From the IMG/VR virus record IMGVR_UViG_3300033148_002074, positions 1 to 34,650 of that record: a DNA stretch of 34,650 nucleotides; one strand, 5' to 3'. This document shows, piece after piece, positions 5,651 to 21,596 of the stretch; the stretch's first letter is position 1, and the number at the start of each line of letters is the position of its first letter. Both the position numbers and the translations under genes were made by a program. The notes beneath the pieces are model-generated. The model searched no databases. It worked only from the letters and a program-made list of their open reading frames with translations, and was not told the origin of the DNA. Source of the DNA: a virus.

Positions 5651-5878
5651 TTAGTCCTCCACATTCGTATGATGCGTTACGCTCTCAGGCTTCCAATCAG
5701 GATTTACCAACCACTCTAAATCATCGCCGCCAATCGCTTTAAGTGCAACCTCTCCCGCGTCTCTATGCCCTATCATGTAGCCTTGCAGCCATATATTATA
5801 TTCAGCTACGGTTTCTATGCCATCTGCTATCGCTTTTTTGATTGTTTCGGTTGGTGCTTCTAGTTCAATTAATTTCAT
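5651..5878 (-). CDS. Hypothetical protein, 75 aa
   Basis: ATG at 5878 follows AAAGGATTTAAA, a context nearly identical to that of its upstream neighbour. The protein has an amphipathic N-terminal part and an aromatic region (YNIWLQGYMIG, then DLEWLVNPDWKP). I recognise no family. It is the second gene of the leftward operon, directly in front of the recombinase gene. Confidence 0.68.
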   Translation of the reverse strand: MKLIELEAPTETIKKAIADGIETVAEYNIWLQGYMIGHRDAGEVALKAIGGDDLEWLVNPDWKPESVTHHTNVED

Positions 5879-5889
5879 TTTAAATCCTT

Positions 5890-6171
5890 TTATTTTCTAT
5901 ATATTCTTGTTTTTGTTTGTGTGTTTTTAGATGTACCAATTGGGCTACTTACTTGCTCTCTTCCGCCCAATATAGATAGTATTCTTTTCATGTGCGATTT
6001 GTCTATCGTATAATCACTTAAACTCTTTAAGCAAAAGTTCTGTATATCCTCTATAATTTGCTTTTGTGTGTTGATGATTTTAAATGCCTCATCCGTATTT
6101 ATCGCACATTCAGACTTGTAAATATCTGTAGTTTTCTTTATCTTCCTCACAATATCTCTTGGTATTTCCAT
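5890..6171 (-). CDS. First gene of the leftward operon, hypothetical, 93 aa
   Basis: ATG 6171 is preceded by AAAAGGATTTAAT. It lies about 120 bases downstream of the predicted leftward transcript start, behind a long hairpin-rich leader. The protein is basic and helical. The C-terminal tail is rich in Thr, Lys and Arg. No helix-turn-helix is clear, so I do not call it a repressor, although its place next to the divergent promoters would suit a regulator. Confidence 0.68.
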   Translation of the reverse strand: MEIPRDIVRKIKKTTDIYKSECAINTDEAFKIINTQKQIIEDIQNFCLKSLSDYTIDKSHMKRILSILGGREQVSSPIGTSKNTQTKTRIYRK

Positions 6172-6179
6172 ATTAAATC

Positions 6180-6293
6180 CTTTTCATTTAAATTAGAGTC
6201 AATGCTCAAACAGGCAACCCGAAAGGAGGAGGTTTAAAATCTAATTGAAAAGGGGTTAGATTTGGGTTGCCCGTGTCAACATTGAAAACTTAT
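6180..6293 (-). promoter_or_regulatory. Structured leader of the leftward operon (nested hairpin with anti-SD segment)
   Basis: Three nested inverted repeats can pair in the leftward transcript: TCAATG/CATTGA (6199-6204 with 6280-6285), GGCAACCC/GGGTTGCC (6213-6220 with 6264-6271) and AAATCTAA/TTAGATTT (6237-6244 with 6256-6263). The RNA segment left between the inner and middle stems contains CCTCCTCCT (complement of 6224-6232), which could pair with Shine-Dalgarno sequences. The exact stems are visible in the sequence. Function as attenuator, translational control or operator is inference. Confidence 0.6.
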
Positions 6294-6299
6294 AAGAGC

Positions 6300-6329
6300 A
6301 GTATAGCTAAAAATAAATATAAATGTCAA
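6300..6329 (-). promoter_or_regulatory. Leftward sigma70 promoter
   Basis: On the minus strand, a perfect -35 TTGACA (6324-6329) and a -10 TATACT (6300-6305) are separated by 18 bases. It would drive the leftward recombinase operon starting at 6171. It mirrors the rightward promoter 28 bases away, which has the same hexamers and the same spacing. Confidence 0.8.
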
Positions 6330-6357
6330 GGGTTTTATGAAAATAAATGTAATTTTC

Positions 6358-6387
6358 TTGACAATGTTGCATTTATTGTGATATACT
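6358..6387 (+). promoter_or_regulatory. Rightward early sigma70 promoter
   Basis: TTGACA at 6358-6363 and TATACT at 6382-6387 are 18 bases apart, a near-consensus promoter. The first gene starts at 6413, so the untranslated leader is short, about 20 bases. The two divergent promoters with only 28 bases between their -35 boxes form an arrangement like a lambda-type switch. Confidence 0.8.
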
Positions 6388-6412
6388 TCACTACATCAAT
6401 ATAAGGAATAAC

Positions 6413-6574
6413 ATGACAGACATAAAGATAGCAGGGCGATTTAAGATGCCAATTAGGACTTTAGCTAATTGGAAAAAACAAAAGTCTAGTAATTGGAGAC
6501 GTAAACTTTACGTGTTTATGAAAGAAAAGCTAGAGAGAGAAGATCATAATGCAAAAAGAGAGGAGCATTTTTAA
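6413..6574 (+). CDS. Small helix-turn-helix protein (early regulator), 53 aa
   Basis: This short frame begins at ATG 6413, six bases after AAGGA and about 20 bases downstream of the rightward promoter. It encodes IAGRFKMPIRTLANWKKQKS near the N-terminus, a helix-turn-helix-like pattern in which RTLANWKK would be the recognition helix, then a basic helical tail. It is the first gene of the rightward early unit, the position of Cro in lambdoid phages. The DNA-binding role is inferred from the motif and position. Confidence 0.68.
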   Translation: MTDIKIAGRFKMPIRTLANWKKQKSSNWRRKLYVFMKEKLEREDHNAKREEHF

Positions 6575-6575
6575 G

Positions 6576-6764
6576 ATGAAACAACAAGACAAATTAAAAC
6601 AAGCAATAACGATAATAAATCAGCAGAATGTAGTATTGAAAGTCATATTAGGCAGTATGGATATGGACGGCAACATAGAACTACATTTAAGAAAACAAGG
6701 CTTGATTGAAATTATAGAAGAGTCGCAGAACTTCATGAGCGTAACAAGAAAGGACACCAAATGA
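6576..6764 (+). CDS. Small hypothetical protein, 62 aa
   Basis: The start at 6576 is preferred because AGGAG lies ten bases upstream; an in-frame ATG at 6549 would add nine residues and overlap the previous gene. The protein is helical with an LKQAITIINQQNVVLKVILG segment and shows no recognisable domain. It overlaps the next gene by four bases. Confidence 0.6.
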   Translation: MKQQDKLKQAITIINQQNVVLKVILGSMDMDGNIELHLRKQGLIEIIEESQNFMSVTRKDTK

Positions 6765-6961
6765 GCCAATCACAAAACACCCTAATCAGACAGCACCTCG
6801 AAGATGGTCATAGCCTCACAGCGATGATGGCGTTAAATATGTTTGACTGCTTTAGGTTAAGCTCACGCATATTCGATCTTCGCAGCCAGGGCATGGATAT
6901 AGTCACAAGAAATATCACGCAGAACGGCAAATGCTTTGCATCATACAGTCTTGTTTTATAA
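6761..6961 (+). CDS. HTH_39-like winged-helix protein, 66 aa
   Basis: The whole protein fits a small winged-helix domain common in phages: IRQHLEDGHSLTAMMALNMF, then DCFRLSSRIFDLRSQGMDI and a closing strand. It probably binds DNA and regulates early transcription or acts in replication. Its start overlaps the preceding stop as ATGA. A hairpin terminator follows 14 bases after the stop. Confidence 0.78.
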   Translation: MSQSQNTLIRQHLEDGHSLTAMMALNMFDCFRLSSRIFDLRSQGMDIVTRNITQNGKCFASYSLVL

Positions 6962-6974
6962 ACAATAACCCCCC

Positions 6975-6999
6975 ACCGCCTAACCCAACATTAGGCGGT
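6975..6999 (+). terminator. Hairpin terminator of the early operon
   Basis: A perfect nine-base stem, ACCGCCTAA (6975-6983) with TTAGGCGGT (6991-6999), encloses a seven-base loop. It is followed by an AT-rich stretch (AACTATATTTTA) rather than a clean T run. It lies right after the HTH_39-like gene and before the next promoter. Confidence 0.7.
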
Positions 7000-7021
7000 A
7001 ACTATATTTTATGTAAAGTAT

Positions 7022-7029
7022 GGTATACT
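7022..7029 (+). promoter_or_regulatory. Extended -10 promoter for the modification operon
   Basis: TGG directly precedes TATACT (7024-7029), an extended -10 element. The -35 region is AT-rich with no good hexamer. The same TGn-TATAAT-like layout recurs near 10616, 21441 and, on the minus strand, 21373, which makes it a likely shared host-sigma promoter style. Confidence 0.6.
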
Positions 7030-7058
7030 TACGAATACCGATATAAGATATGAATTTT

Positions 7059-7142
7059 CTAGTGAGTGTCCAAGCTCTCGAAAGTCCTCCTCTCGGGGGA
7101 CATTCACTAGGTTATTCATTTAGTGATAGACTGCTTGGACAC
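7059..7142 (+). promoter_or_regulatory. Leader RNA with mutually exclusive hairpins and anti-SD loop
   Basis: One fold is a 13-base stem with a single G-U pair, CTAGTGAGTGTCC (7059-7071) with GGACATTCACTAG (7098-7110), whose 26-base loop carries AGTCCTCCTCT (7083-7093). A second fold pairs GTGTCCAAGC (7066-7075) with GCTTGGACAC (7133-7142) and allows an inner hairpin TCACTA/TAGTGA (7104-7109 with 7121-7126). The two folds compete for the same bases. This suggests a switch or attenuator ahead of the gene at 7184; the mechanism is inferred. Confidence 0.62.
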
Positions 7143-7183
7143 ACTCAATCACAAACCTAAATACAGTTGTTCCGAAAGATACA

Positions 7184-7816
7184 ATGGCAACAAAATTCGT
7201 AACGGTCGGCATAGATATTATGCACGATCAAAACCTTAGTCAAAGTCAAAAGTTTATTTTGGCAGAAATAGAACAGTTATCCTCTTTGGAAAAAGGATGT
7301 TTTGCCTCTAACCAACACTTTTCAGAACTTATAGGCATAGCAAAAGAAAGTGTTTCAAGAAGCATAAATAACCTACAGAAAAAAGGCTATATTGATATAG
7401 AAATCAAGGCAGGTTCACGCAACCATGACAGATTGTTAACCCTAAACAAAACGTCAAGACCCCCTAAACAAAACGTCAAGACCCCCTTAACAAAACATCA
7501 AGAGACTAAAGAGAATAAAACATCTAATATACATATTAATATACAAGACGGGGTAAACACAGAAGCATTTAAGATGTGGTGCAAGTATAAAGGCTCTAAA
7601 TATTCGAAACAAGCACAGATACTAAGCATGAATAAACTTGTAAGATTTGATGAGTACACGCAAAAGGAAATGGTAGAAGCTGCAATCATAAATGGATGGA
7701 AGGGACTATTTGAAATCAAAACACAAACAGCTTTTAAAGGCAAAGAACCAGAAGTAGGCTCATACGCCTGGAGAATGAAGCAACAACAAAATGAAATAGA
7801 TGTGGAGGTGATGTAG
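7184..7816 (+). CDS. Helix-turn-helix protein, possible replication initiator
   Basis: The 210-residue protein begins with a winged-helix domain (about residues 15-75) containing SNQHFSELIGIAKESVSRSI and NNLQKKGYIDI. This is the HTH_36/DnaD-like pattern seen in phage and plasmid replication initiators. After a low-complexity, Lys/Thr-rich linker, a C-terminal part (TEAFKMWCKYKG and EAAIINGWKGLFE) resembles phage replication protein C-terminal segments. It follows the structured leader and begins the operon holding the DNA-modification genes. With no polymerase or helicase gene in the window, an initiator that recruits host enzymes would make sense. The exact role is inferred. Confidence 0.72.
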   Translation: MATKFVTVGIDIMHDQNLSQSQKFILAEIEQLSSLEKGCFASNQHFSELIGIAKESVSRSINNLQKKGYIDIEIKAGSRNHDRLLTLNKTSRPPKQNVKTPLTKHQETKENKTSNIHINIQDGVNTEAFKMWCKYKGSKYSKQAQILSMNKLVRFDEYTQKEMVEAAIINGWKGLFEIKTQTAFKGKEPEVGSYAWRMKQQQNEIDVEVM

Positions 7817-8433
7817 TGCATGTTGAACAAATAAAAACAGACAAAACAAAACCATTTATACTAAAAAAGCATTATGCAAGACGTATGCCATCTATCAGCT
7901 ATGCTTTTGGACTGTTCACAGATGAGGGGATGATAGGGGTTGTTACTTTTGGGTCTCCTGCAAGTCCCCCTTTAGTAGTTGGGGTATGTGGTGAAGAATA
8001 TAAAAAATATGTAATTGAACTAAATAGGCTTGTTGTAAATAAGGATGCACCAGTCAACAGTGCTTCATTTCTTGTTTCAAATGCAATTAAAAAGATCGGG
8101 GATAAAATAGTGGTTAGTTATGCAGATAGAGGGCAGAGGCATAATGGCTATATTTATCAGGCTACAAACTTCATCTACACAGGGGCATCAAAAGAAAGAA
8201 CAGATATGGATGCAGGAGAAGGGAAACATGCAAGACATCATAATGGAGACAGAAGTAAAAGAAAACACAGAAGTAGTAAACATAGGTATATCTGTTTTGC
8301 AGGTTCAAAAACATTTAAAAAGTATGCTAGAAAAGCATTAAAATATAAGATAGAAACATATCCTAAAGAAGAGTCAAAAAAATACGAATGTATAGACATA
8401 CCAACCAAGACAACATTAATGGAGTTCATGTAA
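7816..8433 (+). CDS. mom: Mom-family DNA adenine hypermodification protein
   Basis: GTG at 7816 is the start, with a strong GGAGGTG eight bases upstream, and it overlaps the preceding stop by one base. The 205-residue protein shows the motif chain of Mom-like proteins: LKKHYARRMPSISYAFGLF, GVVTFGSPAS, a glycine-rich VGVCG, ELNRLVVNKDAPVNSASFLV, VSYADRGQRHNGYIYQATNF and SKHRYICF. Phage Mu Mom, a GNAT-related enzyme, places a methylcarbamoyl group on N6 of adenine in DNA and so blocks many restriction enzymes. A similar modification of this phage's DNA is expected. A C5-cytosine methyltransferase lies in the same operon. No Com-like translational activator is recognised nearby. Confidence 0.88.
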   Translation: MHVEQIKTDKTKPFILKKHYARRMPSISYAFGLFTDEGMIGVVTFGSPASPPLVVGVCGEEYKKYVIELNRLVVNKDAPVNSASFLVSNAIKKIGDKIVVSYADRGQRHNGYIYQATNFIYTGASKERTDMDAGEGKHARHHNGDRSKRKHRSSKHRYICFAGSKTFKKYARKALKYKIETYPKEESKKYECIDIPTKTTLMEFM

Positions 8434-8975
8434 TGATTAATATAAGAATAGCAAATTTAATGGGTTTAGACCTCAAATCAGCACAGCACTCAATCGCAAT
8501 AGATGAAGCCCTTATAGGCACAGAAGATACAGAAGCATTCTATCAATTCCTAGAAGATAAAAAGAACAGTATCGAGTATGAAACAAAGCCAGAAAGACTT
8601 TTAACACTATCACGAATGTATAAAAAGCTACAAGCAAACGCAAAGCTCCCACATGAAACCGCGATGAACTTCTCAAAGCAACTCACGCACAAAGTGGAAC
8701 AAGCCAGAATATTCATAAAGAACCAAATCGAACTTGGGAACGAAAAGCCTTTTTCTTCTTTGGTGGTGGACGGTCATTCGTATTTCACGGATAAAGAGAT
8801 CAAGACACTTTCGGGGCTTGGCAGAAGTTCGGTTATTGTTGAGTTATCGGAGCAGCATAAACTTGCAGAGAGTTTGATGCAATTGTTTTTGTCGAAGTAT
8901 ATTTCAAGAAGTAAATATGAGGCATTAAATAATAGCCAAAAAGAGGTTAGAAGATTGGTAGGAGGATTAACATGA
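8433..8975 (+). CDS. Hypothetical protein, 180 aa
   Basis: The start at 8433 has GGAG eight bases upstream and overlaps the Mom gene stop by one base; an in-frame ATG at 8388 would lie inside the Mom gene. The protein is soluble and largely helical, with EYETKPERLLTLSRMYKKLQ around residues 50-69. Its last about 24 residues (SRSKYEALNNSQKEVRRLVG and following) closely resemble the 28-residue product encoded at 9142. No family is recognised. Confidence 0.7.
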   Translation: MINIRIANLMGLDLKSAQHSIAIDEALIGTEDTEAFYQFLEDKKNSIEYETKPERLLTLSRMYKKLQANAKLPHETAMNFSKQLTHKVEQARIFIKNQIELGNEKPFSSLVVDGHSYFTDKEIKTLSGLGRSSVIVELSEQHKLAESLMQLFLSKYISRSKYEALNNSQKEVRRLVGGLT

Positions 8976-9145
8976 AATCAAACAAGCAAATAATAGAAGA
9001 GATGTTACAGAGAGATGGCTTTACTGAAAATGAAATAAAGTTAGCAAGTTTAGACACATTAGCAGACGACCTTTTAAGAGAAATGGTTTTAAACGAAAGT
9101 GATGATTATGGCACTTTTAAAGGCGAACTAGAAGCAGAGAGATGA
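8972..9145 (+). CDS. Small acidic hypothetical protein, 57 aa
   Basis: This short frame starts in an ATGA overlap with the preceding gene, and GGAGG (8961-8965) is placed seven bases ahead. It encodes an acidic, helical protein (IIEEMLQRDGFTENEIKLAS at about residues 7-26). The strong ribosome site and tandem four-base overlaps at both ends support it as a real gene. No function is known. Confidence 0.62.
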   Translation: MKSNKQIIEEMLQRDGFTENEIKLASLDTLADDLLREMVLNESDDYGTFKGELEAER

Positions 9146-9228
9146 GTAAGGATATAGCAAAGAGTAAGTATGCCACGCTATCAAGTGGTCAAAAGAAAGT
9201 GAAGAGATTAGTGAAGGGGATGGGGTGA
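9142..9228 (+). CDS. 28-residue peptide resembling the tail of the 8433 gene product
   Basis: The frame starts in an ATGA overlap and ends in a GTGA overlap with the next gene. It encodes MSKDIAKSKYATLSSGQKKV and ends KRLVKGMG, matching the C-terminus of the upstream 180-residue protein (SRSKYEALNNSQKEVRRLVG). That protein-level similarity argues that it is translated or is a remnant of a duplicated tail domain. Function unknown. Confidence 0.5.
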   Translation: MSKDIAKSKYATLSSGQKKVKRLVKGMG

Positions 9229-9455
9229 AGAAGATAAAACATATTAAATATGGCATAGGAATAGTAGATGATAATTTGCAACATAATTGTAGGGGAAACG
9301 AGGTTTTCGTAAAGTTCATTGATAATCTACCAATATTAAAATCTACGGCTATTGCTGGATATCAAGGGGGGCACTACACAGAAGAGACAATGTATGAAAA
9401 CTCAGATATAGTGGACATAAAAGATATTGTTTATTTGGATGAAGAACAAATATGA
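9225..9455 (+). CDS. Small protein, possible SH3/Tudor-like fold, 76 aa
   Basis: It begins with GTG at 9225 within a G-rich ribosome site, overlapping the preceding stop. The sequence IKYGIGIVDDN followed by EVFVKFID resembles the start of small Tudor/KOW-like beta-barrels that bind nucleic acid or polymerase. The similarity is weak and the function unknown. It overlaps the methyltransferase gene by four bases. Confidence 0.6.
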   Translation: MKKIKHIKYGIGIVDDNLQHNCRGNEVFVKFIDNLPILKSTAIAGYQGGHYTEETMYENSDIVDIKDIVYLDEEQI

Positions 9456-10543
9456 AGATAGCAACATTATTCTCAGGCATCGGAGCACCCGAACAGGGAG
9501 CAAAACGAGTTTATCTAAACCATGAGGTGGTTTTCGCTTGTGAATTTGATAAGTTTGCAAGACAGAGCTATGAAGCAAACTATGACATAGCACCGGAACA
9601 CTTCCATAAAGATGTTCACGATTTAGATGCTACGCAATACAGGGACAACATAGATATACTCGTGGGAGGAAGTCCTTGTCAGGCGTTTTCACTCGCAGGA
9701 CTACGACAAGGAACAGAGGACGAAAGAGGTCAATTAATTTATCAATACATCAGAGTAGTCGATGAGTGCAGACCAGAGATAATCGTATATGAGAATGTTA
9801 AAGGCATTATGAGTATCGACAATGGAAACACGATAAAAGATTTCGTCCAGGCACTCAGAGATATAGGCTATCATTGTCATTATGGAGTAGTGAACACCAA
9901 AGATTATGGAGTGCCGCAGAACAGAGAGCGTTTGTTTTTGGTTGGGTTTTTGGATAGCGACCTCTATCACAAGTTCCATTTTGCAGATAAACAGAAGCTT
10001 ACCAGAAGGCTGAAAGATGTGCTTGAAGATGATGTTGATGAGAAGTATTATCTAAGTGATAAAGCAGTTAATTTTTTCAAGCAAAATTCAATAAACAATG
10101 AAGCTAAAGGAAATGGTTTTAGATTTTCTCCTACAGAGGGAAACTCCCACGCAAAAGCACTCACAACACTTGCGGGCAGTAGAATGGATGATAATTTTAT
10201 AAAAGTCCAATCAGCAACCAAGCAAGGCTATGAAACAGCCACAACAGGTGACAGCATAAACCTATCAGTACCAAACAGCAAGACAAGACGAGGCAGAGTA
10301 GGCAAACAAGTAGCTCAATGTTTGGATACTGCTTGTAATCAGGCGGTGGTTGAGGAACGCATACGCAAACTAACACCAAGAGAGTGCCTAAGACTCCAAG
10401 ACTTCCCGGATGATTTTAAAATAGTAGTGTCAGACTCTCAAGCTTATAAACAAGCAGGAAACAGCATGAGCGTAAACATACTAGAAATGATATTTAATCA
10501 AATAGAAAAAGCAAGACGAGGTGAAAGTATAGGACTGTTTTAG
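9452..10543 (+). CDS. C5-cytosine DNA methyltransferase
   Basis: The 363-residue protein has the ordered motifs of the Dcm/HhaI class. Motif I is FSGIGAPEQG (7-16, AdoMet binding). Motif IV is GGSPCQAFS with catalytic C76. Motif VI is ENV (114-116), motif VIII QNRERLFLVG (156-165), motif IX RECLRLQDFP (near 310) and motif X QAGNSMS (near 336). The variable target-recognition region lies between about 170 and 305. It transfers a methyl group from AdoMet to carbon 5 of cytosine. No restriction enzyme gene is next to it, so it acts as an orphan, probably protecting phage DNA along with the Mom-like enzyme. Its ATG overlaps the preceding gene as ATGA. The target site cannot be told from the sequence. 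Confidence 0.95.
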   Translation: MKIATLFSGIGAPEQGAKRVYLNHEVVFACEFDKFARQSYEANYDIAPEHFHKDVHDLDATQYRDNIDILVGGSPCQAFSLAGLRQGTEDERGQLIYQYIRVVDECRPEIIVYENVKGIMSIDNGNTIKDFVQALRDIGYHCHYGVVNTKDYGVPQNRERLFLVGFLDSDLYHKFHFADKQKLTRRLKDVLEDDVDEKYYLSDKAVNFFKQNSINNEAKGNGFRFSPTEGNSHAKALTTLAGSRMDDNFIKVQSATKQGYETATTGDSINLSVPNSKTRRGRVGKQVAQCLDTACNQAVVEERIRKLTPRECLRLQDFPDDFKIVVSDSQAYKQAGNSMSVNILEMIFNQIEKARRGESIGLF

Positions 10544-10592
10544 TTACATATCCACACACTCTCAACAAACAAGCACAAATAACGTGGGTTAG

Positions 10593-10621
10593 TTGGTGTT
10601 GTGGCTGGAAAGTGGTATAAT
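10593..10621 (+). promoter_or_regulatory. Promoter of the SSB/packaging operon
   Basis: A -35-like TTGGTG (10593-10598) lies 17 bases before TATAAT (10616-10621), which is itself preceded by TGG, an extended -10. It stands in the 209-base gap after the methyltransferase gene and would start a transcript with a leader of about 125 bases. Confidence 0.72.
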
Positions 10622-10654
10622 TAAGTATGTGGTTATTGTAAAATAATCTCACAA

Positions 10655-10745
10655 GAGTCTTTTTTAAAGAGGACTCGGCTACTCTTCCCCTTCACGGACA
10701 CGGGTTGAGTCCTCCTCTTTAAAATGGCAAAAGTTCGTGAAGGAG
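10655..10745 (+). promoter_or_regulatory. Leader RNA with predicted pseudoknot covering a ribosome site
   Basis: Helix one pairs TTTTAAAGAGGACTC (10662-10676) with GAGTCCTCCTCTTTAAAA (10707-10724), leaving three bases bulged. Helix two pairs CCTTCACGGAC (10689-10699), inside the loop of helix one, with GTTCGTGAAGG (10733-10743), just beyond it, giving an H-type pseudoknot. The second arm contains most of AAGGAG (10740-10745), the ribosome site of the gene at 10753. A local hairpin GAGTC/GACTC (10655-10659 with 10672-10676) competes with helix one. The pairings are visible; translational control is inferred. Confidence 0.65.
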
Positions 10746-10752
10746 CTACACA

Positions 10753-11025
10753 ATGAACAAACAAAACCCATTATTAGGAAAAGGGGATTATACTCTAATG
10801 AGAGTAATAAATGAAGAGACACAAATAAGAGGCTTAGCCATAGTAAATGCAAATCGCTTTAAAACATTTGGAGAAGTAGGAGAAGAGGTGGATATTTTGC
10901 ACATAGAAAGTATAGATGATGAGAAAGATATAGCTATTTATTTTACAAACCTAGAAGGGGTAGACGCATTATTGCTCGAACTTACTTTACTAAGAGAAGA
11001 TATTAGAAAGGACAATCATGTATAA
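10753..11025 (+). CDS. Hypothetical protein, 90 aa
   Basis: ATG 10753 follows AAGGAG by seven bases. It is the first gene downstream of the structured leader and overlaps the SSB gene by eight bases. The protein is acidic with no recognised motif. Its place suggests it is expressed together with SSB, possibly under leader control. Confidence 0.68.
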   Translation: MNKQNPLLGKGDYTLMRVINEETQIRGLAIVNANRFKTFGEVGEEVDILHIESIDDEKDIAIYFTNLEGVDALLLELTLLREDIRKDNHV

Positions 11026-11509
11026 CAAAATAATCCTAGCAGGAAACCTAACAAGAGACATCGAAATACGCTACACACAGGGCGGTTCAGCTATAGGGAA
11101 CACAGGTATAGCAACTTCACGCAAATTCAAATCACAATCAGGTGAACAGAAAGAAGAAACTCTCTTTGTAGATTTAACTTTCTTTGGACGTACAGCCGAG
11201 ATAGCAAATCAATACCTACGCAAAGGCTCAAAGGTTTTAGTCGATGGACGCTTAAAATTGGATAACTGGACTGCACAAGACGGCACAAAGCGAAGTAAGC
11301 ACTCAGTCACAGTTGAGAACCTACAGATGCTAGGCAGTAAAGACGACAGCCACCAAGACGCACCACCACCAAGCTCAACACCACCACAAAGCGGATATCA
11401 AGCACCACCACAAAACTCACACGCTTCACAGCCACAGGGTGGAGCGATACCCTCAATCGATATAGACGATGACTCGATACCATTCGCTCCCATGAATTGG
11501 AGGTTATAA
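11018..11509 (+). CDS. ssb: Single-stranded DNA-binding protein
   Basis: The first about 108 residues form the bacterial-type OB fold: MYNKIILAGNLTRDIEIRYT, ATSRKF, LFVDLTFFGRTAEIANQYLR, KGSKVLVDGRL and an SVTVENLQML end. A Pro/Ser/Gln-rich linker follows. The acidic protein-interaction tip DDDSIPF is present but is followed by seven more residues (APMNWRL), whereas it is normally the extreme C-terminus. The codons of that extension carry the GGAGG ribosome site for the next gene. SSB would protect replication and recombination intermediates and work with the ERF protein. Confidence 0.94.
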   Translation: MYNKIILAGNLTRDIEIRYTQGGSAIGNTGIATSRKFKSQSGEQKEETLFVDLTFFGRTAEIANQYLRKGSKVLVDGRLKLDNWTAQDGTKRSKHSVTVENLQMLGSKDDSHQDAPPPSSTPPQSGYQAPPQNSHASQPQGGAIPSIDIDDDSIPFAPMNWRL

Positions 11510-13546: not shown

Positions 13547-13943
13547 GTACAATAACACTAAATGTGAATACCCGTTCCAGGGCGAAATATACAAGTTTGA
13601 CTCTAAGTTGGAAAGATCACACGCTATCACATTGTTTGATAGATTGAAGCGTGGAGAGATAGAGAGGCTCACACTGCAAAAAGAGTTTACGCTATGTAGT
13701 TCACTCACATATAGGACAAACTCCACAAAGAGCGGTAAAACCAAACAGAGGGCTATCGTGTATATCTCAGACTTTAGCTATTATGAGGAGGGAAAACATA
13801 TAGTAGTTGACTCCAAAGGCTTCAAGGATAAAACATATTCTGTTAAGAAGAAACTGTTTTTATCTCAACTTAAAGAGCATAAGGTGGATGAGTTTAAAGA
13901 GCTATATAAATCGGAGTCAATAACATACAAGGAGTTGACATGA
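13539..13943 (+). CDS. DUF1064 putative PD-(D/E)XK phage endonuclease
   Basis: It starts with GTG at 13539, overlapping the preceding gene. The 134-residue protein contains KFDSKLERSHA near residues 19-29 and YISDFSYYEEG followed by HIVVDSKGF, the D...(D)xK core of DUF1064 proteins. These are viewed as phage endonucleases of the restriction-like fold, possibly Holliday-junction or recombination nucleases. It sits beside an HNH-like gene, upstream of the terminase genes. Confidence 0.82.
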   Translation: MSKYNNTKCEYPFQGEIYKFDSKLERSHAITLFDRLKRGEIERLTLQKEFTLCSSLTYRTNSTKSGKTKQRAIVYISDFSYYEEGKHIVVDSKGFKDKTYSVKKKLFLSQLKEHKVDEFKELYKSESITYKELT

Positions 13944-14744: not shown

Positions 14745-16057
14745 CATGGAAGCCAACACCCAAACAAGAACTTTCACTAGAAACTACAGCAGACGAGGTT
14801 CTATTTGGAGGAAGTAGAGGTGGGGGCAAGACAGACTCAGCTTTACAATGGCTACTTTATGACATAGACAATAAAGCACTAAGACAGCTCGTTATTAGAC
14901 GTAACGCAACAGACTTGGCAGACTTTGTGGACAGGGCTAGAACTAAATACTCTCCACTTGGAGCTAAGGTAGCAGGAAACCCCGCAGTAATCACTTTCCC
15001 CTCAGGTGCAACAATCTACACAGGACACTTAGCAACACCAGACGCTTACACTAAATACCAAGGTTGGGAGATACACCGCTTACTTATGGAAGAAGTCACC
15101 CATATACCAACGGAGAAACTATATGAGAAGTTACTAGGGTCATTAAGATCAACTGTTCCTGGTATCACAACACAAGTATTTTTAACCACTAACCCAGGAG
15201 GGCAAGGGCATGAATGGGTAAAAGAGAGGTTTCACATTGACAACAAGCCACACGGTACAAAATTTGAAGTGGACGGAAAGACTAGAATTTACATACCTGC
15301 CACTATCAGAGACAACATTCACTTAATGGACGCAGACCCAGGGTATCTTAAATACTTAGAGAGTTTACCGCCTGGACTTAGAGAACAATGGCTAGATGGC
15401 TCATGGGATGATATGGATATCGAAGGAGCTTACTATATTAAGCAAATGAATGTAGCAGCCAAGGCAGGACGCATAACAGATGTACCTATTGAGCCAACGC
15501 TTAAAACCTTCTCTTATTGGGATTTAGGCATGGCAGACGCAACAAGTATTTGGGTTATTCAGGCACATGGTAACGAACTGAGAGCAGTAGCATACTACGA
15601 GAATAGTGGTGAAGGTCTTAGACACTATGTAAATTGGCTACATGATTTAAGGGATACCCATGACTTTGTATTTGAAGGACACTACTTCCCACATGATATA
15701 AGAGTGAGAGAGCTTAGTACAGGACAAAGTAGAGAAGTGGCACTTAGAAAGATGGGCATCAATGTCAGAATGGTTCCAAACAAAGGGCTAATGGACGGTA
15801 TCGAAGCAGGTAGAAATATAATAGGTCGAGTATGGTTTGATGCAGAGAATTGCAAAGACGGCATTAAGTGCTTAAAGAACTATAGGAAAGAGTTTGACGA
15901 GAAGCATAATGTATTTAAGGATAAGCCCTTACATGATTGGGCTTCACATGGTGCTGACGCATGGAGATATTTTGCGTTAAGTTGGAACGATCAACTGAGT
16001 AAACAAGATAGGAGACAATCACATGGAAGCACAAATGAGTGGAGTGTCTATGACTAA
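14741..16057 (+). CDS. terL: Terminase large subunit (ATPase and nuclease)
   Basis: The 438-residue protein shows Walker A GGSRGGGKT (23-31), Walker B LLMEE (114-118), and the coupling motif TTNPGG near 149. The C-terminal nuclease domain has SYWDLGMADATSIW near 265 with acidic metal ligands, and HDWASHGADAWRYF near 410. It pumps DNA into the prohead and cuts concatemers. Length and motif order fit the Terminase_6/3-like families of short-tailed phages. The start overlaps terS in an ATGA junction. Confidence 0.95.
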   Translation: MTWKPTPKQELSLETTADEVLFGGSRGGGKTDSALQWLLYDIDNKALRQLVIRRNATDLADFVDRARTKYSPLGAKVAGNPAVITFPSGATIYTGHLATPDAYTKYQGWEIHRLLMEEVTHIPTEKLYEKLLGSLRSTVPGITTQVFLTTNPGGQGHEWVKERFHIDNKPHGTKFEVDGKTRIYIPATIRDNIHLMDADPGYLKYLESLPPGLREQWLDGSWDDMDIEGAYYIKQMNVAAKAGRITDVPIEPTLKTFSYWDLGMADATSIWVIQAHGNELRAVAYYENSGEGLRHYVNWLHDLRDTHDFVFEGHYFPHDIRVRELSTGQSREVALRKMGINVRMVPNKGLMDGIEAGRNIIGRVWFDAENCKDGIKCLKNYRKEFDEKHNVFKDKPLHDWASHGADAWRYFALSWNDQLSKQDRRQSHGSTNEWSVYD

Positions 16058-21437: not shown

Positions 21438-21446
21438 TGTTATAAT
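21438..21446 (+). promoter_or_regulatory. Extended -10 promoter of the capsid operon
   Basis: TGT precedes TATAAT (21441-21446). The upstream stretch is very AT-rich and has no clear -35 hexamer. The transcript would have a leader of about 145 bases before the capsid start at 21597. Confidence 0.65.
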
Positions 21447-21454
21447 GGTATCAG

Positions 21455-21596
21455 AATATTAAAACTCTAGATACCTCTTTAAGAGCCTGGTCTGTTTCAA
21501 TTGTTCAAGTGTATTTGCATTTTGAGCCTTGAGTCGGTCAAGGACACCTCCAAATGACAAAACAATCAACCATATTAAAACAGATAAGGAGACATT
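21455..21596 (+). promoter_or_regulatory. Leader RNA of the capsid operon
   Basis: Visible elements are a near-palindrome CTCTTTAAGAG, a hairpin CCTTGA/TCAAGG (21527-21532 with 21538-21543, five-base loop), an anti-SD stretch ACCTCC (21546-21551), and a long-range pairing of CTGTTT (21492-21497) with AAACAG (21578-21583) supported by ATTGTT/AACAAT (21500-21505 with 21561-21566). The ribosome site AAGGAG lies at 21586-21591. A regulatory role in late gene translation is inferred. Confidence 0.48.

Follow-up and report, generated by a model that had tools for sequence, protein, structure and literature searches.

The stretch of DNA analyzed here (the window) is a 34,650-base virus record from IMG/VR, IMGVR_UViG_3300033148_002074, whose genes include those for Erf, a RepO-like replication initiation protein, Mom, a single-stranded DNA-binding protein (SSB), terminase, portal, and capsid. 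Three of its transcription units carry a structured leader RNA between a sigma-70-like −10 box and the start codon. The rep unit has a −10 box TATACT at 7024-7029 and begins with the RepO-like gene (7184-7816, plus strand); the ssb unit has a −10 box TATAAT at 10616-10621 (extended form GTGGTATAAT, 10612-10621) and begins with a gene for a 90-amino-acid protein (10753-11025, plus strand), followed by the SSB gene itself (11018-11509, plus strand, PF00436); and the leftward unit has the promoter TTGACA-18-TATACT on the minus strand (6329-6300). All three leaders folded better than shuffled sequences (z = −3.4 for rep, −2.3 for ssb, and −4.4 for leftward), in agreement with an earlier note on this DNA that had called them hairpin rich and had united them by a CCTCCTC segment. 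Our comparison across phages indicates instead a single class of 5′ leader RNA, defined by shape and present in diverse phages, that includes the ssb and rep leaders.

The closest relative of the window is IMGVR_UViG_3300033141_001404 (G001; capsid 90%, SSB 83%); other phage records are likewise given G numbers, and loci L numbers. Among isolated phages, Nitratiruptor phages NrS-2 to NrS-5 stand nearest by SSB; their hosts are Campylobacterota (PMC9723563), and such a host is therefore likely for the window phage as well. The window showed no near similarity at the DNA level to isolated phages, a prophage and host search of GTDB genomes with the capsid and first-gene proteins gave no match, and a search for relatives through the 90-amino-acid first gene of the ssb operon found none.

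The ssb leader (10653-10752) forms an interlocked double pseudoknot with the helix order A B A′ C B′ C′, here called type I. Helix A pairs AAGAGU (10653-10658) with ACUCUU (10681-10686). The 5′ strand of helix B (10663-10676) consists of a lower part at 10663-10671 and an upper part at 10672-10676, and its 3′ strand (10707-10723) contains a conserved bulge of 3 nucleotides (nt) at 10712-10714. In helix C, the loop CCUUCACGGAC (10689-10699) pairs with the strand GUUCGUGAAGG (10733-10743), which contains the Shine-Dalgarno (SD) sequence and is followed by the start codon at 10753. When the SD was held fixed, none of 1,000 shuffles matched the pairing score of this leader. A 5′ hairpin, P0 (10629-10652; 10629-10637 with 10642-10652), precedes the pseudoknot, and a hairpin at the same position is present in most type I relatives.

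The type I architecture was kept in 13 leaders from 12 phages, among them the GC-rich phage G063, at 28 to 87% sequence identity. Most of these leaders have AAGAGY and RCUCUU as the strands of helix A, replaced by UAAACC and GGUUUA in G063. Helix B measures 13 to 17 bp and has a bulge of 3 to 4 nt in its 3′ strand in 12 of the 13, with a 1×1 mismatch in the remaining one, while helix C measures 7 to 11 bp, and in every leader of the set its SD-bearing 3′ strand ends 5 to 9 nt upstream of the start codon. How little of this depends on primary sequence is illustrated by G001, in which the promoter and the first approximately 40 nt of the ssb transcript are nearly identical to those of the window and most bases of the next approximately 90 nt differ, with the long stem and the SD-pairing loop retained; G038 has a third sequence version with the same stem and loop.

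Twelve of these leaders were aligned by structure, and 32 of the 36 type I pairs had changed on both sides. The double-change cells numbered 117, compared with a shuffle mean of 32.5 and no more than 28 after sliding of the partner strand. We used a hand-fitted, padded alignment, in which 100% pairing arises by construction, because MAFFT alignments shifted or scattered the strands; the evidential weight therefore lies on the slid and shuffled controls, a null scan, and six relatives chosen by gene homology. The scan with a type I descriptor over 2.6 Mb gave 13 hits at a score of at least 28, against none in either of two shuffled sets. In each of the six relatives (G001, G002, G038, G052, G055, and G056), the leader heads the ssb operon or lies close to its head; G052, G055, and G056 were picked via the first-gene protein, and in G002 the leader lies one gene upstream. 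The compensatory changes in the stems that the earlier note had proposed to look for were thus found, in the ssb leader and, as described below, in the rep leader.

Two capsid-clade phages carry a related-looking leader below the type I threshold (L035 at 8499 and L036 at 2717), with GGUA/UACC, a long stem, and CCUUGU paired with an ACAAGGA SD. A comparable hairpin lies in the isolated phages NrS-3 (L224, 18545-18655) and NrS-2 (L225), where its loop TTGGTCCTT pairs with an SD strand AAGGACCAA upstream of a DUF6291 gene.

SD-sequestering pseudoknots are a familiar riboswitch design, and the conserved bulge and architecture would suit a metabolite-binding RNA with the double pseudoknot as its aptamer and helix C as its expression platform. 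However, no invariant unpaired core was seen among the type I leaders at their 28 to 87% identity, the downstream genes differ, and the Rfam 15 covariance models gave no match in the window at gathering score, so that we consider a riboswitch quite unlikely. Nor did the leaders in the loci of 14 relatives match Rfam; elsewhere in these loci, only one tRNA and one abiF RNA were found, the latter (RF03085) at L003 2599-2635 in phage record G049. A search of the open-access literature found no report of leaders of this kind, and the interlocked-pseudoknot leaders are apparently an undescribed class.

The rep leader (7059-7183) was designated type II. Its helix P1 pairs CUAGUGAG (7059-7066) with 7103-7110, and P2 pairs UGUCCAAGC (7067-7075) with 7133-7141. 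Between the P2 and P1 strands stands the hairpin P3 (7084-7101, GUCCUCC/GGGGGAC), whose sequence is not conserved. P6 pairs AGGUU (7109-7113), which overlaps the end of P1, with 7154-7158, and P5 pairs GUGAU (7123-7127) with 7148-7152, so that the 3′ strands of P5 and P6 together occupy 7148-7158. A conserved weak SD, GUUCCGAAAG, follows at 7169-7178, ahead of the start codon at 7184. Immediately 3′ of the rep gene lies a gene for a protein of the Mom DNA modification family (7816-8433, PF25680).

In a structure-blind MAFFT alignment of six phages (the window, G007, G054, G071, G068, and G051), the strands of P1, P2, P5, and P6 were recognizable and the 3′ end, UGUUCCGAAAG-N-AUG, was almost constant. 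P3 reads CUUAGAC/GUCUAGG in G007, CCUACC/GGUAGG in G054, and CCCUUAC/GUGAGGG elsewhere. Sequence patterns of the rep leader retrieved a single genuine match from viral contigs, G007, the other matches looking like chance. A scan for the type II structure that required no start codon found more members, with 11 hits at a score of at least 33 in 2.6 Mb against none in either control set. In 15 type II phages, 24 of the 26 P1 and P2 pairs had changed on both sides, and the double-change cells, tallied by script, numbered 143 compared with a shuffle maximum of 54. Counted from near the P1/P2 boundary, the start codon lies 114 to 117 nt away in the window, G007, G054, G049, G058, and G014.

The order P1 P2 P1′ P6 P2′ P6′ of type II corresponds to A B A′ C B′ C′ of type I; the two types therefore have a common topology, which does not imply common ancestry. 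Wherever a promoter-like −10 box can be seen, members of the class begin no more than approximately 40 nt from it, and the distance between their 3′ end and the start codon is nearly fixed.

The leftward leader, encoded on the minus strand, is a simpler pseudoknot. An outer stem (5′ strand GGGCAACCC, 6264-6272, paired with 6213-6220) encloses an inner hairpin (6237-6263), AAAUCUAA/UUAGAUUU, in which 6256-6263 pairs with 6237-6244, and the loop strand of this hairpin, CCUUUUCA (6246-6253), is perfectly complementary to the leader's own SD strand UGAAAAGG (6179-6186), upstream of the start codon at 6171-6169. As with the ssb leader, 0 of 1,000 shuffles with the SD held fixed matched the pairing score. 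This leader is common to the window and G001 at 81% DNA identity, and its outer stem, GGGCAACCC/GGGUUGCC in the window, reads GACCCAAGC/GCUUGGGUC in G001 with the inner hairpin unchanged. It stands upstream of different genes in the two phages (5890-6171 on the minus strand of the window and L093 15837 in G001), so that its persistence or movement is not tied to the gene behind it. Locus L093 of G001 also holds, between divergent promoters, approximately 300 bases (15395-15702) that are not present in the window and that contain inverted repeats, AGCTCTTATAAGTGGTGTAG / CTACACCACTTATAAAAGCTC, together with CTTGGACAC/GTCCAAG words.

The earlier note had read CCTCCTC as a common anti-SD that mimics the tail of 16S rRNA and blocks ribosome sites either in cis or, as a small RNA, in trans. 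The positions on which it relied were confirmed: CCTCCTC lies in the rep leader (7086-7092), the ssb leader (10711-10717), and, on the minus strand, the leftward leader (6226-6232); an 11-mer, AGTCCTCCTCT, occurs exactly twice in the window, at 7083-7093 and 10708-10718; and ACCTCC is found at 21546-21551 in the leader of the capsid gene. Nevertheless, neither CCTCCT (13 observed and 15 expected) nor CCTCCTC (4 copies compared with 1 to 8 in shuffles) was enriched in the window, the fourth CCTCCTC lying on the minus strand at 13785-13791, outside all these leaders. Repeated 11-mers are frequent in the window (931 compared with approximately 540 in shuffles), and the shared 11-mer therefore carries little weight; its two copies, moreover, occupy different structural elements. 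In the ssb leader, CCTCCTC falls in the 3′ strand of stem B and its bulge, whereas the rep leader has it as the base-paired 5′ strand of hairpin P3.

The earlier note had named the loss of both stems and CCTCCTC as refuting; in the relatives, the stems persist and the motif is mostly lost: CCTCCTC is absent from 10 of the 13 type I leaders and retained in 3, and CCTCC within P3 is missing from all five alignable type II relatives. The CCTCCTC leader family was consequently rejected, and by sequence comparison the motif is incidental to both the ssb and the rep leader. A stretch of this kind, CCUCCUUU, persists in the leftward leader alone, and there in its one relative: in the 3′ bulge (CCTCCTCC, 6225-6232, similar in G001), CCUCCUCCUUUC of the window corresponds to CUUCCUCCUUUU of G001, the sole CCUCC retained, in two sequences in all. 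Instead of the loop, this bulge could pair with AAAGGA in the SD of the leader. On the whole, a common CCTCCTC anti-SD is very improbable. Anti-SD pairing in cis was the right kind of mechanism for the ssb and leftward leaders, assigned to the wrong segment, since the pairing strands are CCUUCACGGAC and CCUUUUCA; for action in trans we found nothing, the partner being the RNA's own SD.

The capsid leader (21441-21596, plus strand) is a separate conserved leader RNA. A GAUACC motif occurs in it twice (CAGAUACCUC..GAGCCUG and GGAUACCCAAAGC) and in approximately 40 of 50 capsid upstream regions (loci L009-L071), whereas its ACCTCC is clade specific and reads ACCC in most homologs. A trace of it, GGCATACCAAAGCG, was noticed upstream of the capsid gene in the isolated Methylophilales phage MEP301, and an Rfam search of six capsid-leader loci gave no match.

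Collectively, we favor the view, with a probability of roughly 0.7, that the leaders of this class, defined by interlocked pseudoknots, act in cis as translation gates on early replication operons. Comparison provides the helices, their covariation, the SD within helix C, and the position of the elements; an action on translation in cis is what we infer from them. In type I, helix C would lock the SD, leaving the first gene of the operon untranslated until the pseudoknot opens. A translation gate would be expected to look like this: in all type I members helix C follows the SD, its sequence varying freely while the spacing stays constant. In type II, approximately 10 nt separate the end of the last helix from a weak SD (GAAAG) downstream, and this knot probably governs ribosome access or mRNA stability and not direct hiding of the SD. 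The leftward leader, with its simpler pseudoknot, would in the end act as type I does, and the predicted pairings lend good support to cis regulation through the ribosome site in both it and the ssb leader. An RNA-binding protein of phage or host origin, or the conditions of early infection, would then be the trans factor that opens or stabilizes the leaders.

The genes behind the leaders are those of replication and early regulators, namely, the SSB operon, RepO, DUF6291, AntA, HTH_39, and CII-like genes. Six type I leaders stand at the head of ssb operons, and type II leaders precede RepO, DUF6291, and AntA genes, the type II leader of G007 preceding a DUF6291 gene. This distribution would fit an autogenous operator bound by the phage's SSB or replication protein, a special case of the translation gate, and Ssb of T4 and RB69 does recognize a leader pseudoknot (PMC535899). 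Type I leaders, however, also occur upstream of HTH_39-repO, CII-like, and MUG113/T5orf172 genes, and the SD is locked in structure here, compared with an unstructured tract in T4, so we regard autogenous control as a tentative possibility.

Alternatively, the 5′ knots could chiefly shield early transcripts from 5′ exonuclease, with SD pairing secondary. Interlocked folds are suited to exonuclease blocking, the structures begin near the promoter, and type II leaves the SD uncovered; yet helix C follows the SD in 13 of 13 type I members, which a pure stability role would not need, and we find this explanation doubtful. The long stems close to a replication initiator gene might also be inverted repeats acting at the DNA level, as terminators, a replication origin, or protein sites. 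The helices are interleaved, though, the top type II hits are in sense orientation even though the scan demanded no start codon, the spacing to the start codon is fixed, and no T-run follows the stems. In addition, none of the four terminator-like sites found in 5800-11200 as candidate intrinsic terminators or attenuators falls within these leaders. A DNA-level role is thus extremely improbable.

Several observations weigh against the translation gate. The pairing calls for both types rest on structure-fitted hand alignments, and the structural scan was itself the source of some members. At 3 to 6 bp, helix A is short, it is weak in G038 and G068, and the varied downstream genes argue against simple autoregulation by a single product. 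The SD of the rep leader is not sequestered. In type II, P6 shares bases with the end of P1, so that not all helices can coexist, and the two may work as a switch between alternative folds. Finally, in G001, G002, G052, and G055, the type II element precedes several hundred noncoding bases and no rep gene. The stretch that replaces the rep gene, in which no sizeable open reading frame lies, is a possible long phage noncoding RNA. Its sequence 3′ of the type II element is partly conserved (AAGCAGAAAATAGAGT...) among L079 (minus strand), L206, L211 (minus strand), and L077 (minus strand), and an Rfam search of the L079 and L077 stretches gave no match.

Beyond the translation gate itself, we think it rather probable that the A B A′ C B′ C′ folds constitute a large undescribed phage class of leader RNA, made up of modules that share shape only, that are interchangeable before many early genes, and that have their own sequence version in each phage and operon. 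Such a class is nearly invisible to searches for conserved sequence, the usual route to RNA families; it is absent from Rfam and yet occurs in more than 20 phage genomes. The class suggests that the timing of early genes in these phages is set at translation through knotted leaders, and the 28 natural variants form a ready comparative set on the gating of a ribosome site by pseudoknots. A further lesson is that where pairing is the conserved property, a short motif may catch the eye in a leader and still be misleading.

The HDV-like fold is a nested double pseudoknot, and the elements of type II follow its order P1, P2, P3, P1′, (P4), P2′, which led us to consider a ribozyme of this kind. In contrast to HDV-like RNAs, P1 of the window begins with C, no catalytic core is recognized, and an extra P6 leads to the start codon; the HDV families of Rfam had no hit in the window at an E value of ≤5, and a ribozyme was not supported. 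With the CU-rich-loop small RNAs of Campylobacterota, the leaders have in common a C-rich strand complementary to the SD, but here that strand pairs with the SD of the RNA to which it belongs and the two strands covary, a separate small RNA being without support. SAM-II and preQ1-II carry the SD in the 3′ strand of a pseudoknot helix, as type I does, and have conserved ligand-contacting cores, whereas the leaders described here are almost without sequence conservation. The gene 32 operator of T4 and RB69 consists of a pseudoknot of approximately 28 nt and, 3′ of it, a less structured UUAAA tract that contains the SD (PMC535899). The ssb leader differs in being an interlocked double pseudoknot of approximately 100 nt with the SD inside helix C and not in a UUAAA tract, and in that its class also precedes genes other than ssb. 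What it shares with the gene 32 operator is a pseudoknot at the head of the operon, before the ssb gene, in which structure outweighs sequence.

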